Origin: Leptolyngbya sp. SIOISBB
Lineage (GTDB): Bacteria; Cyanobacteriota; Cyanobacteriia; Phormidesmidales; Phormidesmidaceae
Direction: 5' to 3'
Assembly (NCBI GenBank): GCA_010671905.1
Contig: JAAHII010000001.1
Span: 3,720,001 to 3,784,000 of the forward strand
DNA: 64,000 bases
Under the pieces are notes generated by a model that did no database searches, was not told where the DNA came from, and was given only the letters and a program-made list of their open reading frames with translations. Positions 24,888-47,614 of the stretch are shown here, piece after piece. Made by a program: the position numbers and the translations under genes. Each line of letters begins with the position of its first letter. Positions within the stretch are counted from its first letter, which is position 1.

Positions 24888-27428
24888 TCACACAATGAGC
24901 CACCACAGGCTGGCTGTCAGTCCGAGTGTGGCCAAATGTTGGGGTATCAGCAGGCGAAAGGGATAGCGGGCAATTTTTTGGGTCAGGGCGATCGCTAAAA
25001 TCGCTCCGATGCTCAACGCTGTGCCTTGCAAAAAGGCCACGACGGCTGGATGAGCAACTAATACTGGTAAGTTCATGCCTGAAAGCCCAATTGTTGCGGC
25101 ACTCAAGGGTAATACTTGTCCCGCTTCGGTGAGAAACAACTGGAGATAATGGGCCAGGGTGCCCATGAGCACCAATGGCAGGTATCCGTAGGCCAGTTCC
25201 TGAAAAGGACGGGGTTTGCGGGTCTTGGTCAGTTTGTGCAGAACATAGATGGCGGCTTGTGCAGTGCAGGGTAGTAAGGCGGGGAATATGAGAAGCGCGA
25301 TCGCGACTCCCCCATGCAGCCAAAAGTTCGTCAAATTCATGGACCAGCTGAAGCCTTCCAGCAACTCGGGCAAGCGATGGAGAAAGACGGCATCAAGCAG
25401 TAAAAATAGCAGCGCTACTTCATACGCGCGGGGCGTATGGGTCGTCCAGAGTTCAATGCCGGGGGGCCGCAGATTAAATTCCACCGAGCGATGAGGACAC
25501 GCCTTGAGACAGGTCATACACAGTACACAATCGCGATTTTCCTCTAACTGCGCTGGATGCGAATAGATCGGACAACCCGCTGTTTTCTGGCCTTCGCCTT
25601 TCTCAGGGCCTCCTTTATAGCACTGGTAGGTGGTGCATTCTGCTGAACAAGTTCCTTGCTGTGCCCGTAGTTCCGTCATGGAGAGTTTGGCATGGAGTCC
25701 ATTCATGCCGCCAATGGGGCAGAGGTAACGGCACCAAAACCGCCGCTCAAAAATTTGTGAAAAAATGATGGCCCCGGCTGTAATCAGCAGCAGCAGACAA
25801 GCCGACAAATAGGCAGTGTTTTGCAAATCCCACAGCTCTTCCCACAAGAGGATGAGAGCAAACAGCCCCAACAGGAACCAGCCGCCCCAGCGTTCGGCCT
25901 CTTCGCGGGGCCAGCGTTTAAGTTGGCGAGGCCAGAGCTTGAGCGAAAGGGTTTGCAGCACTTCGCCATAAATCATGAAGGGGCATACTGCACACCAAAC
26001 CCGCCCCAAAAAGGGAAATACCAGCAAAATGATGGGCCACCACCAAGCCCAAAACAGGTTGAGAACGACATTTTGATCGCGGGTTTGGGGGCCGACGAAC
26101 AGCACGATGTTCATCAGCGCAAACGCTGCCAGGGTGACGCCATAGTTGAGGCGATCAGGCCACCAAGGACTCCTCAACAACTGTCGCAGGGTGGGATAGG
26201 CGTTGAGCAAATTCCAGCGAAATTGCTTCTTTTTACTCTGAGACGGCCAGAGAATTTCTTCCGTGAGTATGCAGTCCGGTGCTACCTGAGATAACGCCCG
26301 CGAGACGAGACTTTCTAGTTCCCGCAAATTGTTCGGAAAATTGTAGGCTTGCAAGCGCCGAATTGCTTCTGGGCTGACAGCAATCTTTTGCTTGCCACGG
26401 GCGCGGCTAATCAGGCTGATGTAGTAATCGACGTAATCTTCAATGTCAGCTTTGCGGACTCGTAGAGGCGGCACTTTGATTTGGGTGTCAACGACCTTAT
26501 CTACGGCTGGAATGGGTCGCTCCGAAATCAGGATGATCTGAGCGGCACTTGTGCGTTCAGGGATGGATGCATCACGCTCACGACTGACCGGACGGTAGGT
26601 GTGGTGGGTGAGCAGTTGGGCGATCGCGCCAATGAGCGGTTTGGGCAATTCTTCAACGTTGTTCAAAACCAGCGTACCTGCATCCAAGGCTTCCAGTAGT
26701 CCTGGTTTGCCGTCTACGCGTCCAAAGAGTTCGGCTCCACTCGCTTGCAGATGAGCACAATCGACCTTGATGATGGCTTGGCGGCGATATGCCGAACCGT
26801 AGTGCATCAGTGCGGCGATGTTGTCTTTTTCCGTTCCCGGTTCGCCAAATATCAGGACCGACCCGCAGTCATCCTTGCAGTTTTTGAAGGCATCGCGAAT
26901 TTGTTGTCGGAGGCGCTGAGCATATCGACTGCGGCCAATGACCCCGCGGCGGGCCTTGGTCACTAAGTAAGGCCGCAAGATTGCTTGCCGTTCTTGCTCA
27001 TAGGTCAGTTGTGAGGCAACCTGCCGCAACTCGGCCGCAATCCGCTGCGAAAACACTTGCATGATTTCGGGATAATCTGATTTGAGCTGCTGGAATTGCG
27101 CTGCGGGCAGAAACCAGAATCGACAGTGATTGAGGGTCTGGATGGTGTTTTCGACCGGTTCTCCCAGCAGGAGCGATCGCAGATTGAGTAATGCCCCTGG
27201 CAAAAAACTCATCGGCCGACTCGCACCGGGCTTATGCTCTAGCCGCCCAGTTTCCAGAATATAGAGCCCATCGGGTGGTGTGTCTGCGATTACGACAACT
27301 TGATGCGGAGGTAGCTGCCGGCGTTCCAGCTGCTGACTGAGGGTGGTGAGGATGTCATCACTGAGGGCACTCAGGGCCGATCGCTCCTGCAGCCAGATGA
27401 TGCGATCTCTCACTGTCGTGCTTGTCAT
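24888..27428 (-). CDS. cNMP-binding / sigma-54-activator-like AAA / NosR-NapH-like polyferredoxin membrane fusion
   Basis: An 846-residue protein. Domains: Crp-like cyclic-nucleotide-binding fold (about 15-140); AAA+ domain of the sigma-54 activator type (about 160-395) with Walker A-like GEPGTEKDN (195-203) and the NFPNNLREL motif (363-371); then a membrane part (about 430-846) with several transmembrane segments, CAVCP (479-483), CRYLCP (566-571) and a 4Fe-4S ferredoxin motif with Cys634, 637, 640 and 644 (CVLCMTCLKACP). The membrane part resembles NosR/NapH/CcoG-type iron-sulfur electron carriers. The AAA part is degenerate: no GAFTGA loop, and LNNVEE where Walker B should read LDE. There is no helix-turn-helix. 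It is probably a membrane redox protein with a ligand-sensing head rather than a transcription activator (inference). No operon partner lies nearby. Confidence 0.82.
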   Translation of the reverse strand: MTSTTVRDRIIWLQERSALSALSDDILTTLSQQLERRQLPPHQVVVIADTPPDGLYILETGRLEHKPGASRPMSFLPGALLNLRSLLLGEPVENTIQTLNHCRFWFLPAAQFQQLKSDYPEIMQVFSQRIAAELRQVASQLTYEQERQAILRPYLVTKARRGVIGRSRYAQRLRQQIRDAFKNCKDDCGSVLIFGEPGTEKDNIAALMHYGSAYRRQAIIKVDCAHLQASGAELFGRVDGKPGLLEALDAGTLVLNNVEELPKPLIGAIAQLLTHHTYRPVSRERDASIPERTSAAQIILISERPIPAVDKVVDTQIKVPPLRVRKADIEDYVDYYISLISRARGKQKIAVSPEAIRRLQAYNFPNNLRELESLVSRALSQVAPDCILTEEILWPSQSKKKQFRWNLLNAYPTLRQLLRSPWWPDRLNYGVTLAAFALMNIVLFVGPQTRDQNVVLNLFWAWWWPIILLVFPFLGRVWCAVCPFMIYGEVLQTLSLKLWPRQLKRWPREEAERWGGWFLLGLFALILLWEELWDLQNTAYLSACLLLLITAGAIIFSQIFERRFWCRYLCPIGGMNGLHAKLSMTELRAQQGTCSAECTTYQCYKGGPEKGEGQKTAGCPIYSHPAQLEENRDCVLCMTCLKACPHRSVEFNLRPPGIELWTTHTPRAYEVALLFLLLDAVFLHRLPELLEGFSWSMNLTNFWLHGGVAIALLIFPALLPCTAQAAIYVLHKLTKTRKPRPFQELAYGYLPLVLMGTLAHYLQLFLTEAGQVLPLSAATIGLSGMNLPVLVAHPAVVAFLQGTALSIGAILAIALTQKIARYPFRLLIPQHLATLGLTASLWWLIV

Positions 27429-27566: not shown

Positions 27567-28049
27567 TGATTGGCCTCTCGTTGCCAATACACCGGAATAT
27601 ACCAGGGTATTTTTGCGCAAAAGCAACCAGATCATCAAGGCTGCGGTGATTGAGTTCACTCAAGCTCGGCTTGGGCATTATAGGGGTGAATAACACCGTT
27701 GAACTGCAGGCAAGATCACGTTAGCCACTGCTCGGACACTCTTTCTTTAAGGCTGCTCCAGAGTCCCAAGCTGATTGTGCTTGTCATTGTTTAATATGGA
27801 TTACTTACGAGATCTATAGGTCGTTTTCTATCCTCGCCCAGTATCTGGTTTTTTGGGAGGCTGCTACCATCGGGCACATGACCGTTGTAAAGCCCCTGCA
27901 GCAGCCTGGATCAACTTCATACCAGCACCTTGCTGAGAGTTTTGAGGCGGCAACAACGATATTTTATGTTGCAAGCTATTGACTTTCGAGGTGTATTATT
28001 GGGTGCAGGATTGACAGTATCATACGCTAGACGCAAGGATTATATAGCT
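27567..28049. other. Leader region upstream of ado
   Basis: About 480 bases without a convincing gene. It contains GCAACA...TGTTGC near 27950-27972 and a TTGACA at about 28011, which is too close to the start for a usual promoter. The ado frame is open upstream to 27930, but the start is at 28050. It probably holds the ado promoter and leader. Confidence 0.45.
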
Positions 28050-28745
28050 ATGCAACAGTTGGATATCACTCCTGCACTCGATTATCAATCTGAAGGTTAC
28101 AAAGACGCTTACAGCCGCATCAACGCGATCGTGATCGAGGGTGAGCAAGAGGCTTTCGATAACTACTGTCAGTTGGCAGAACTCCTCCCCGACGCTAAGG
28201 ATGATCTCCTGCGTTTGGCTAAGATGGAAAAGCGCCATATGAAAGGCTTTCAAGCCTGTGGTAAGAACCTCTCGGTCACTGCCGACATGGAATTTGCCAA
28301 GGTTTTCTTTGAGAAACTGCATGGCAACTTCAAAGTGGCCTGGGACGAGGGAAAAATTGTCACTTGTCTGTTGATTCAGTCTTTGATTATTGAGACGTTT
28401 GCGATCTCGGCTTACAACATTTACATTCCTGTGGCTGATGACTTTGCTCGCAAAATCACAGAAGGGGTGGTCAAAGACGAGTATATGCATCTGAACTTTG
28501 GTGAAGAGTGGCTCAAAGCTAATTTTGAAGCCTCTAAAGCTGAACTCGAAGAGGCTAATCGCCAAAACCTGCCGATTGTTTGGGCCATGCTGAATCAGGT
28601 GGCTGATGATGCGAATGTCCTGGGCATGGAAAAAGAGGCTCTCGTCGAGGACTTCATGATCACCTATGGCGAAGCCTTGAGCAATATTGGCTTTTCCAGT
28701 CGTGAAGTAATGAAGCTTTCGGCTCAAGGTTTAGCAACTGTTTAG
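28050..28745 (+). CDS. ado: Aldehyde-deformylating oxygenase (alkane biosynthesis)
   Basis: A 231-residue, ferritin-like di-iron enzyme that converts fatty aldehydes to alkanes plus formate, using O2 and reduced ferredoxin. ATG 28050 gives [20 protein letters not shown], the exact length and start of known ADOs, with AAGGA upstream. All six iron ligands are present at the expected places: Glu32, Glu60, His63, Glu115, Glu144 and His147. Conserved blocks: [52 protein letters not shown]. It is followed by aar and accA, the usual cyanobacterial order. A strong hairpin separates it from aar. Confidence 0.96.
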
Positions 28746-28821
28746 GTACTGGGGTCGACTGCTCGACCAGACAATCGTTCACAGAAATCTCTGTTGACGA
28801 TTTCGAGCTGCTTGGAAATTT

Positions 28822-28868
28822 TCGGGAAAGCGATCGCGGCCTCCATTGAGGTCTCGTCGCTTTCCCGA
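28822..28868 (+). terminator. Strong hairpin between ado and aar
   Basis: TCGGGAAAGCGA (28822-28833) pairs perfectly with TCGCTTTCCCGA (28857-28868); AAATT/AATTT flanks extend it, and an inner CCTC-CATT-GAGG stem lies in the loop. It lies 77 bases after the ado stop. The 3' flank is AT-rich (AATTTATTTG), not a full U-tract. It is likely to end or reduce ado transcription, which fits separate ado and aar transcripts as described for cyanobacteria. Confidence 0.65.
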
Positions 28869-29012
28869 AATTTATTTGACTGATCTATCATCCCTGCCTC
28901 AGGGTGGGGTGTTCAAACGCAGTTTCAGTGCGGGACTGACTTCACGTATGGTGGAGATATCTTCAGCTTTTGCCCCATTTTCACTCTCTTAGAGGTGGTA
29001 CGCAGGATTACG

Positions 29013-30069
29013 ATGTTTGGCCTAATTGGACACTTAACTAGTCTCGATCATGCTCAATCAGTCGCTCGGGATTTGGGATATCCCGAATATGCTGATCAAG
29101 GACTCGATTTTTGGTGCAGTGCACCTCCACAGATTGTGGATAGCATCAAAGTGACAAGCGCTACCGGCCAGGTGATCGAAGGGCGCTATGTCGAATCTTG
29201 CTTTTTGCCTGAGATGCTGGCAGCTCGACGCATTAAGACCGCTGCTCGTAAAGTGATTAATGCGATGGCCCACGCCCAAAAAAAATGGCATTGACATCAC
29301 TGCACTCGGTGGATTCTCGTCCATCATCTTCGAAAATTTTAATCTCAACCAGATGAAGCAAGTGCGTAACGTTTCTCTGGAATTTGAGCGATTTACCACT
29401 GGTAACACTCATACCGCTTATATTATTTGTCGACAAGTTGAGGCTGCCTCGGCCCAGTTGGGGATTGATCTGGCCAACGCTACTGTGGCCGTCTGCGGAG
29501 CAACGGGTGATATCGGCAGTGCAGTTTGTCGCTGGCTCAATGCTCGCACTGATATTCCGGAAATGTTGCTGGTTGCTCGTAACCAAGAGCGCCTGCAAAA
29601 TCTGCAGGCTGAACTGGGCCGAGGCAAAATCGCTAGCAGTCTTGAAGACGCCGTGGCTCAAGCCGATATTGTCGTTTGGGTCGCGAGTATGCCGAAGGGG
29701 GTCACCATTGATCCACAAATCTTGAAGCGTCCCTGCCTAATGATTGACGGTGGCTACCCCAAAAACTTGGATAGCCATTTTAACGCTGAAGGGATCCACG
29801 TCCTCAAGGGAGGCATTGTCGAGCACTCTCTAGATATTGACTGGCGCATCATGAGCATTGTGAACATGGATGTCCCGGCTCGGCAGTTGTTTGCCTGCTT
29901 TGCTGAATCAATGCTGTTGGAGTTTGAGAAGTGGCATACCAACTTTTCGTGGGGGCGTAACCAGATCACCCTGGAAAAAATGGATTTAATTGGTCAAGCC
30001 TCGGTTCGACATGGCTTCCGACCACTGCTGAACTTGACCTCAGCGGCCCTAGTGTCTGAGGGCTCTTGA
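29013..30069 (+). pseudogene. aar: Acyl-ACP reductase, frameshifted in an A8 run
   Basis: AAR reduces acyl-ACP to the fatty aldehyde used by ADO. ATG 29013 gives [18 protein letters not shown] as in known AARs. The frame runs to 29294 and stops; the rest of the protein continues in the +1 frame to 30069. The break is at eight A's (29278-29285): with seven, the text reads [20 protein letters not shown], as expected of the family. The NADPH-binding [14 protein letters not shown] and the catalytic Cys ([14 protein letters not shown]) both lie after the break, so the 94-residue first piece would be inactive. The total without the extra A is about 351 residues, near normal. Either a homopolymer sequencing error, a true null allele, or a slippage site. 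Everything else is well conserved, which favours error or a very recent event. Confidence 0.9.
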
Positions 30070-30123
30070 AGACTGCTTGATCAGCTTAGACTAGCTAATT
30101 AGCGGCTTTGAAGGGCCGTGGCA

Positions 30124-30188
30124 CTTGTTTACTGCTGCTGCCTAGGGATTAGTTGTCTTCTCAGAATCCCTTCAGCAAGTAAAACAAG
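30124..30188 (+). terminator. Long imperfect hairpin between aar and accA
   Basis: CTTGTTTACTGCTG (30124-30137) pairs with CAGCAAGTAAAACAAG (30173-30188) with two bulges, and the inner AGGGATT (30144-30150) pairs with AATCCCT (30165-30171). There is no U-tract, so it may be an attenuator or processing site rather than a simple terminator. Confidence 0.45.
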
Positions 30189-30293
30189 AACCGTTATGCT
30201 AACTGAGTGAGGTTCTCTGACTTGATAGCTCGGATTGATGGCTGATGGTCATTTTGAATTTGGCGCTGTCACTGCACCGATGTAGTTGAAATT

Positions 30294-31292
30294 ATGCCGA
30301 CGACCCAACGCAAAACCATTCTGTTAGATTTTGAAAAACCTCTGGTTGAACTGGAAGAACGGATCGACCAAATTCGCAGTCTAGCGGAAGATAATGAAGT
30401 CGATGTTGCCGCCCAGCTACGGCAATTAGAGACCCGAGCCGATCAATTACGGCAAGAGATTTTTGCTAGTTTGACCCCTGCTCAGCGCTTACAGGTGGCG
30501 CGTCATCCTCGGCGACCGAGTACGCTTGACTATATCCAGGCCATTAGTGACGAGTGGATTGAGCTACATGGCGATCGCGGCTCTGGCAAAGACGATCCGG
30601 CTCTGGTGGGTGGCATTGCTCGATTTGAAGGTCGTCCAGTCGTGATGCTGGGTAATCAAAAAGGGCGCGATACCAAGGACAACGTCGCTCGCAATTTTGG
30701 GATGGCCTCGCCGGGCGGATATCGCAAAGCGATGCGATTAATGCAGCACGCCAATCGCTTTGGCATGCCGATTTTTACGTTCATTGATACGCCTGGTGCG
30801 TTTCCTGGTTATGAAGCGGAAGAGCTAGGGCAAGGTGAGGCGATCGCTTACAACCTGCGTGAAATGTTCTCCCTTGACGTACCGATCATCTGCACTGTCA
30901 TTGGTGAAGGGGGCTCTGGTGGGGCACTCGGTATTGGGGTTGGCGATCGTTTGATGATGTTTGAGCATGCCGTGTATACCGTTGCTAGCCCGGAAGCCTG
31001 TGCAGCTATTTTGTGGAAGGATGCTGGGCGAGCAGCGGAAGCTGCCGAAGCGCTCAAAATTACTGCGCTTGATCTGATGAATCTTGGCATCTTAGATGTG
31101 TTGTTAGCCGAGCCGCTCGGCGGCGGACATGCCGATCCTCTAAAGGCAACAGAAATTTTGCGAGAAGCGCTCAGAGAAAACTTAGAATCGCTGCTAGTCT
31201 TATCTCCGGCAGAACGACGGGATCTGCGTTATCAGAAGTTTCGCAAAATTGGGGTTTTTGCGGAAATCGCCCAAAATGGTCAAGCTCAATAG
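30294..31292 (+). CDS. accA: Acetyl-CoA carboxylase carboxyltransferase subunit alpha
   Basis: A 332-residue subunit of the heteromeric carboxyltransferase (AccA2D2), which moves the carboxyl group from biotin to acetyl-CoA to make malonyl-CoA, the first step of fatty-acid synthesis. The N-terminus ([20 protein letters not shown]) and the crotonase-fold core are typical: [68 protein letters not shown], and [12 protein letters not shown]. The length matches the family (~320). It follows aar by 224 bases, as in most ADO-carrying cyanobacteria, so precursor supply and alkane synthesis are encoded together. Confidence 0.96.
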
Positions 31293-47487: not shown

Positions 47488-47557
47488 CACTCAAAACTTA
47501 GAACTCAAAACTTAGAACTCAAAACTTAGAACTCAAAACTTAGAACTCAAAACTTAG
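47488..47557 (+). repeat. Five tandem copies of a 14-bp unit
   Basis: AACTCAAAACTTAG is repeated five times in register (the first copy begins CACTC), directly after argH. A second short repeat of CCCTGTTC type follows at about 47566-47599. Probably a slippage-prone minisatellite. Confidence 0.9.
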
Positions 47558-47614
47558 AAGCAACTCCCTGTTCTCTATTCCCTGTTCCCTGTTCCCTCTT
47601 TAGTGGATGCTCTC

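Follow-up and report, generated by a model that had tools for sequence, protein, structure and literature searches.

A gene on the reverse strand of the Leptolyngbya sp. SIOISBB genome encodes a single chain in which a CRP-like domain, a AAA+ domain of the sigma-54 activator type, and a NapH/NosR-like membrane iron-sulfur module are fused. The window, by which we mean the whole stretch of DNA analysed, is 64,000 nucleotides long (assembly GCA_010671905.1, contig JAAHII010000001.1, positions 3,720,001–3,784,000 of the forward strand); the gene occupies 24888..27428 (–) and specifies an 846-amino acid open reading frame that ends in additional C-terminal membrane helices. Activators without a GAFTGA loop and NapH-like modules are both already known, and the fusion combines such known parts. 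We found no description of the fusion in the open-access papers searched, in keeping with the first-pass annotation, which knew of no characterization of this design. Our preferred explanation, held with about even confidence, is that the protein transfers electrons at the membrane and that its AAA+ part, no longer hydrolysing ATP, serves in control or assembly.

Four Pfam families were matched above their gathering scores: cNMP_binding (PF00027; amino acids 37–116, E = 6e-10), Sigma54_activat (164–292, 3e-12), AAA_lid_14 (323–393, 1e-11), and Fer4_5, in two stretches (1e-8). Among the NCBIfam matches listed (25 of 31 families), the middle part matched many sigma-54 activator families and the membrane part matched NapH/MauN (E = 2.4e-14), in both cases far below the cut-offs. 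The AlphaFold2 model, calculated from a 60-row alignment, has a mean pLDDT of 85.8 and a pTM of 0.60, and contains a long helix (amino acids 121–154; 26967..27068, –) that joins the CRP-like and AAA domains. In 60 family members scanned with Pfam, AAA_lid_14 and Fer4_5 were found in all and Sigma54_activat in 59. Pfam and the family alignment described below thus bear out the three-part fusion first read from the sequence. The absence of a DNA-binding domain, also claimed at that stage, was confirmed: no helix-turn-helix family was detected by Pfam, either at E up to 0.1 in the window protein or at E up to 0.001 in the 60 members, and no kinase or other output domain was among the Pfam matches for these proteins.

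Of 388 genomes of the window's class, 261 (about two-thirds) contain a whole or partial match at 1e-20. Because open homologues are this widespread, chance is excluded as an origin of the architecture, and we rejected the possibility of a pseudogene or artefact. An earlier draw from the phylum gave 179 of 386 genomes with any match at 0.001, many of these weak; 107 of the matching genomes are of the same class or nearer, and 104 of these matched below 1e-10. Outside the phylum, among the plasmids searched (72,556 records), at least 80% of the query was covered in two records, both cyanobacterial. At the loci that we opened in nonphotosynthetic relatives the fusion was absent, with four encoding other polyferredoxins and three encoding bEBP-type activators.

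The family alignment has 138 rows, which we grouped into types A (the window's type, 118 rows), B (13), and C (7). Some rows are identical, and the rows are not independent. Two rows, one each of B and C, are fragments that do not include the AAA core, leaving 136 AAA-bearing rows. In the family tree, a quick one drawn with midpoint rooting, B and C sit on long branches and many of the forks are open. Type C is without the CRP-like domain. The window genome carries one A gene and one B gene, and we counted at least 44 B genes among the matches listed (identity to the B query of at least 58%, vs at most 44% for the other listed rows). A set of 30 B loci was also assembled, three of which (the window genome's own, G286, and G296) repeat the 13 of the alignment.

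The CRP-like domain (amino acids 37–116; 27081..27320, –) was recognized by its fold in the window protein and in 50 of the 60 scanned members, the other 10 having no cNMP match. The cNMP phosphate-binding signature is absent from all 118 A and all 13 B rows, as judged by a pattern without a positive control; a looser pattern, likewise without one, matched one A row. C rows have no aligned residues over this domain, except in one short stretch. The first-pass annotation had named a Crp-like cNMP domain, of which the fold holds and the phosphate-binding signature does not. Lacking this signature, the domain is unlikely to have cAMP or cGMP as its ligand.

The AAA+ domain and its lid (amino acids 158–396; 26241..26957, –) have the FleQ/NtrC1 fold, with the AAA part of the model superposing on FleQ with a VIA-align Z of 25.4 (rmsd 2.1, 227 residues). 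Shared with the sigma-54 activators NtrC, FleQ, and NifA are this core-plus-lid fold, a similar P-loop context, and the stretches IH--S, PL-R, and N-REL. Unlike these activators, the window protein has no GAFTGA loop, no Walker B Asp-Glu, no arginine-finger motif, and no helix-turn-helix domain, and no RpoN domain was found in its genome.

The family-wide alignment that the first-pass annotation proposed as a check shows that such losses run through the family. At the place expected for GAFTGA is a shortened L1 region (amino acids 237–250; 26679..26720, –): G236 and G251 are separated by 14 residues in 117 of the 118 A rows, vs 21, 22, 22, and 22 in four GAFTGA-like domains from relatives. The resulting shortfall of 7–8 residues is close to the 8-residue L1 deletion that passages on the GAFTGA-less Caulobacter NtrC describe. 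No GAFTGA-like loop occurs in any of the 138 rows, two of which are the fragments without that region. The arginine-finger pattern FR.DL..R was likewise absent from all 138 rows, by a blunt test that found the pattern in only two of these four comparison domains. At the Walker B site TLVLNN (amino acids 252–257; 26658..26675, –), Asp-Glu is replaced by Asn-Asn, with N256 in 116 and N257 in 117 of the 118 A rows. The first-pass annotation had described this segment, LNNVEE, as without acids; its two glutamates are acids, but none stands at the Walker B positions. The Walker B of VpsR, LLLND, is similar to the LxLNN of the window protein.

What remains of the nucleotide site is conserved. In the altered Walker A sequence GEPGTEKD (amino acids 195–202; 26823..26846, –), all 136 AAA-bearing rows retain Lys201, and Lys201 and Asp202 are each invariant in the 118 A rows. 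The replacement of Gly200 by Glu, correctly noted for the window protein, is not fixed family-wide: residue 200 of type A is Glu in 101 rows, Gly in 13, Gln in 3, and Asp in 1, and Gly200 occurs, by eye, in several separate A groups of the tree. The sensor II region PNNLREL (amino acids 365–371; 26316..26336, –) has Arg at residue 369 in 56 of the 118 A rows and Lys in another 43. Between positions 150 and 400, 31 columns are strictly invariant in type A. For the AAA segment, dN/dS was 0.03 and 0.06 in the two of six pairs with unsaturated dS there; dS was saturated for many pairs. In type C the AAA segment is more variable in length.

The earlier description of the AAA domain as dismantled is therefore the wrong word. 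With an invariant P-loop lysine, and a Walker B pair fixed as Asn-Asn in the window's type, the alignment indicates a site that is remodelled, not decaying, with its ligand pocket under selection. Lys201 and the fixed Asn-Asn argue for a pocket in use, and the tolerance for Glu, Gly, Gln, and Asp at position 200 argues against strict ATP use in type A. Since position 200 varies in this way, no single ligand chemistry fits all members. Conservation of the AAA residues could also be structural only.

The site of type B has a different composition. In the 30 B loci, G200 and K201 are present in all and T202 in 29, forming a GKT P-loop, by virtue of which type B may bind nucleotide. Position 256 is Asp in 14 of these loci, and position 257 is Asn in 25 and Asn, Gln, or His in all 30, leaving no catalytic Glu. 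At position 369, Arg does not rank among the five commonest residues.

The window genome gave no match to either RpoN domain, Sigma54_DBD or Sigma54_CBD, in agreement with the expectation that rpoN is absent from it; both searches were positive in four of 14 control genomes. Passages of a survey of 29 cyanobacterial strains report sigma-54 and its activators as absent from all of them (PMC3162934). Searching 386 genomes of the phylum for Sigma54_DBD, we obtained matches in 11, of which two were above the cut-off. One is a 207-amino acid open reading frame in a genome of the same class (G125), which resembles the RpoN DNA-binding domain over model positions 33–159 of 160 (62 bits; locus L153); that genome has no Sigma54_CBD match, and the frame is perhaps a fragment or a foreign piece. 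The other, in G224, covers model positions 25–72. We also looked in genomes without sigma-54 for homologues whose ATPase motifs are intact and which have a GAFTGA loop, and found none among the 138 fusion members. Activators with GAFTGA-like loops do exist in nonphotosynthetic relatives without detected RpoN, but these are not the fusion. Two such relatives (G106 and G325, loci L137 and L138) encode chains with two tandem sigma-54-type AAA units, having the loops GAYTGA/GSFTNA and GAFTDA/HAFTGA; neither RpoN domain was found in these genomes. Locus L136 of G321 gave a further match.

The NapH/NosR-like core of the membrane module (amino acids 422–655; 25464..26165, –) has four predicted membrane helices and two ferredoxin-type motifs, and is homologous to TIGR02163 (NapH; E = 1.4e-14, 54 bits), though below the curated NapH/MauN cut-off of 213 bits. 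It contains a CX2CP motif (C479–P483; 25980..25994, –), followed by a CX3CP motif (C566–P571; 25716..25733, –) and two [4Fe-4S]-type sites (C594-x3-C598-x4-C603-x15-C619P and C634-x2-C-x2-C-x3-C644P; 25494..25649, –). The twelve cysteines of these elements, namely C479, C482, C566, and C570 of the Cys-Pro motifs and eight in the two predicted cluster motifs, are invariant in all 138 rows and in all 30 B loci, 27 of which are new. Spacing in the first cluster motif is 3-4-15 in 125 rows and 3-4-24 in 13. Five further predicted membrane helices follow (amino acids 668–845; 24894..25427, –), in which Y747, E768, G770, and Q801 are invariant in 63 aligned rows; the model has nine long helices in this module. 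Heme ligation by the C-terminal helices was considered and is not claimed, because H684 and H760 are each missing from some members. By helix positions and the positive-inside rule, read by us without a tool, the cysteines and the N-terminal domains would lie on the cytosolic side. The search for a solved fold gave none at E 0.001 and was uninformative, the model being weak in this module (pLDDT 71).

The four helices and two Cys-Pro motifs are shared with NapH, NosR, and RdhC, and the two [4Fe-4S]-type motifs resemble those of NapH and NosR. In contrast to these proteins, the window protein has the CX2CP motif first, the 3-4-15 spacing, the five extra helices, the N-terminal CRP-AAA part, and no match to an FMN-binding domain (Pfam; window protein and 60 members). 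According to passages of PMC5928378, the membrane part of NapH is proposed to oxidise quinol, and mutations in the Cys motifs impair NapH and NosR. A quinone site in the membrane module of the window protein is putative. The closest comparison for the module by itself is a 452-amino acid 4Fe-4S binding protein from a Deinococcus ficus plasmid, which is 31% identical over amino acids 406–821, including the stretch C-CTT-CYKG-GCP and the C-terminal helices, but has Fer4_5 as its only Pfam family and neither a CRP-like nor an AAA domain. Because it is found there without the AAA domain, the membrane module can stand alone. A Sulfurovum mangrovi plasmid also encodes a relative of the membrane module, close to a 2-hydroxyacyl-CoA dehydratase-like gene and the corresponding activase; this relative is perhaps the electron donor to that pair.

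Neighbouring genes were compared at 100 loci (86 A, the window included, 8 B, and 6 C). The neighbour analysis suggested in the first-pass annotation revealed no partner recurring across the 86 A loci. The two most frequent neighbour families were rejected as conserved partners, as neither runs across type A. An LtrA-family gene lies downstream of A in 14 loci (e.g., L071, L028, and L042), of genera that we read as Nostocales; in seven of these it is on the same strand with a gap of at most 125 bases, and the one tested matched Pfam LtrA at 1.9e-98. This neighbourhood says little about redox. Response-regulator-type genes occur at 12 of the 100 loci, some on one strand and some on the other, and their distances are scattered. 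In the window itself, the adjoining stretch 27930–31292 reads as genes for aldehyde-deformylating oxygenase, acyl-ACP reductase, and accA, an order repeated at locus L003. Elsewhere in the window, positions 47489–47559 hold five perfect 14-base tandem repeats, and Rfam gave no match.

Type B does have a recurring neighbour. In 23 of the 30 B loci, the next 1.2 kb after B holds a cysK-type gene on the same strand, and in 16 this gene comes within 40 bases; two of the seven loci without it have less than 250 bases of downstream DNA. In the first set, 8 of 13 B loci had such a gene after B on the same strand. None of 117 A loci showed the same arrangement within 1.2 kb (downstream DNA reaches that far in 108), and a cysK-like gene lies elsewhere nearby in four of them. 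The Pfam match of the B-linked gene is to a general PLP-enzyme family, its name of cysteine synthase coming from two annotated plasmid homologues, and in the window genome it is one of three such genes with more than 55% identity. The B locus of that genome (G000:C1:1281000-1299000) contains a run that, by our reading of the translations, encodes heme oxygenase, hemN, nitronate monooxygenase, and a radical-SAM activase, followed by cysK. Passages of PMC4500134 name ho2 and hemN as low-oxygen genes in cyanobacteria. Genes reading as cydAB and nifH lie near two other B loci (L147 and L129, respectively), and DsrE and rhodanese genes lie near one B locus. Among the 13 B loci, HO2 and HemN seeds matched only the own-genome locus, and the low-oxygen setting is therefore not general for type B.

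In the explanation that we prefer, the NapH/NosR-like module would carry electrons from the quinone pool to a cytosolic partner, or from that partner to the pool, by means of its nine helices, the cytosolic CX2CP/CX3CP pair, and clusters predicted to occupy the two [4Fe-4S]-type sites. The CRP-like domain, long helix, and AAA+ domain would have given up contact with sigma-54, DNA binding, and ATP hydrolysis of the usual kind. Instead, the CRP-like and AAA+ parts would assemble the protein and set its activity through the conserved, remodelled ligand pocket. Gating of electron transfer by the AAA domain, as the first-pass annotation had it, is plausible; the domain might also just hold the complex together.

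Several other functions have to be weighed against this. The protein might be a redox sensor: the membrane module would respond to the quinone pool, to oxygen, or to sulfide, and a cytosolic partner would receive the signal through the AAA/CRP-like part, electron flow being the signal and not the pathway. The N-terminal domains are of sensor type, and some B loci lie near genes reading as low-oxygen or sulfur genes. NosR, too, was first taken for a regulator and later tied to electron transfer, as passages of PMC5928378 recount; the same confusion is therefore possible for the window protein, in either direction. With no output domain detected by Pfam and no regulator conserved beside type A, where the response-regulator-type genes are scattered, we regard a sensor as possible but somewhat unlikely. 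That the AAA domain is an inert assembly scaffold without a ligand would explain the missing catalytic parts, the exchange of residue 200 among Glu (which is expected to disturb phosphate binding), Gly, Gln, and Asp, and the variable length of the segment in type C. Lys201, the fixed Asn-Asn of type A, and the GKT of 29 of 30 B loci suggest that the pocket is still selected, and make such a scaffold unlikely.

A role in sulfur metabolism, with the protein as the electron source for a reduction of sulfur whose product enters cysteine synthesis, would fit type B most clearly, given its downstream cysK-type gene and the DsrE and rhodanese genes at one locus. No conserved reductase partner was seen, however, type A lacks the link, and cysK, whose Pfam match is to a general PLP-enzyme family, may do no more than mark the niche; we consider this role improbable. 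The resemblance to VpsR, which is likewise without GAFTGA and is the second-best PDB profile match of the window protein, raises the further idea of a membrane-tethered regulator acting with sigma-70, of the VpsR/HupR kind. VpsR, HupR, and the NtrC proteins of Caulobacter and Rhodobacter are soluble and keep a DNA-binding domain; the window protein, in contrast, is fused to a membrane iron-sulfur module. GAFTGA-less NtrC and VpsR are reported, in passages of PMC10274813, to act with sigma-70. However, regulators of this type bind DNA, no helix-turn-helix family is found here, and in the predicted structure the AAA part runs straight into membrane helices, which leaves such a regulator hardly credible.

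As a membrane electron-transfer protein with a non-hydrolysing AAA+ module, the window protein would add a component to cyanobacterial electron transfer. It would also offer an uncommon example of selection keeping a AAA+ domain of the sigma-54 type, as part of a membrane redox protein, where the genomes have no sigma-54. The pairing of B with cysK makes function testable by gene removal in cyanobacteria. We tentatively suggest, as a speculation with the chances against it, that a AAA+ motor became, at an early stage of cyanobacterial evolution, a switch that does not hydrolyse ATP and by which a quinone-linked iron-sulfur oxidoreductase is clamped or gated. The switch would exist in two forms: A, together with C, which lacks the CRP-like domain, would be the housekeeping form, and B, apparently in an operon with a cysteine synthase of its own, the form for low oxygen or sulfide. 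If this is true, electron flow in the photosynthetic membrane would be set by a former transcription engine.
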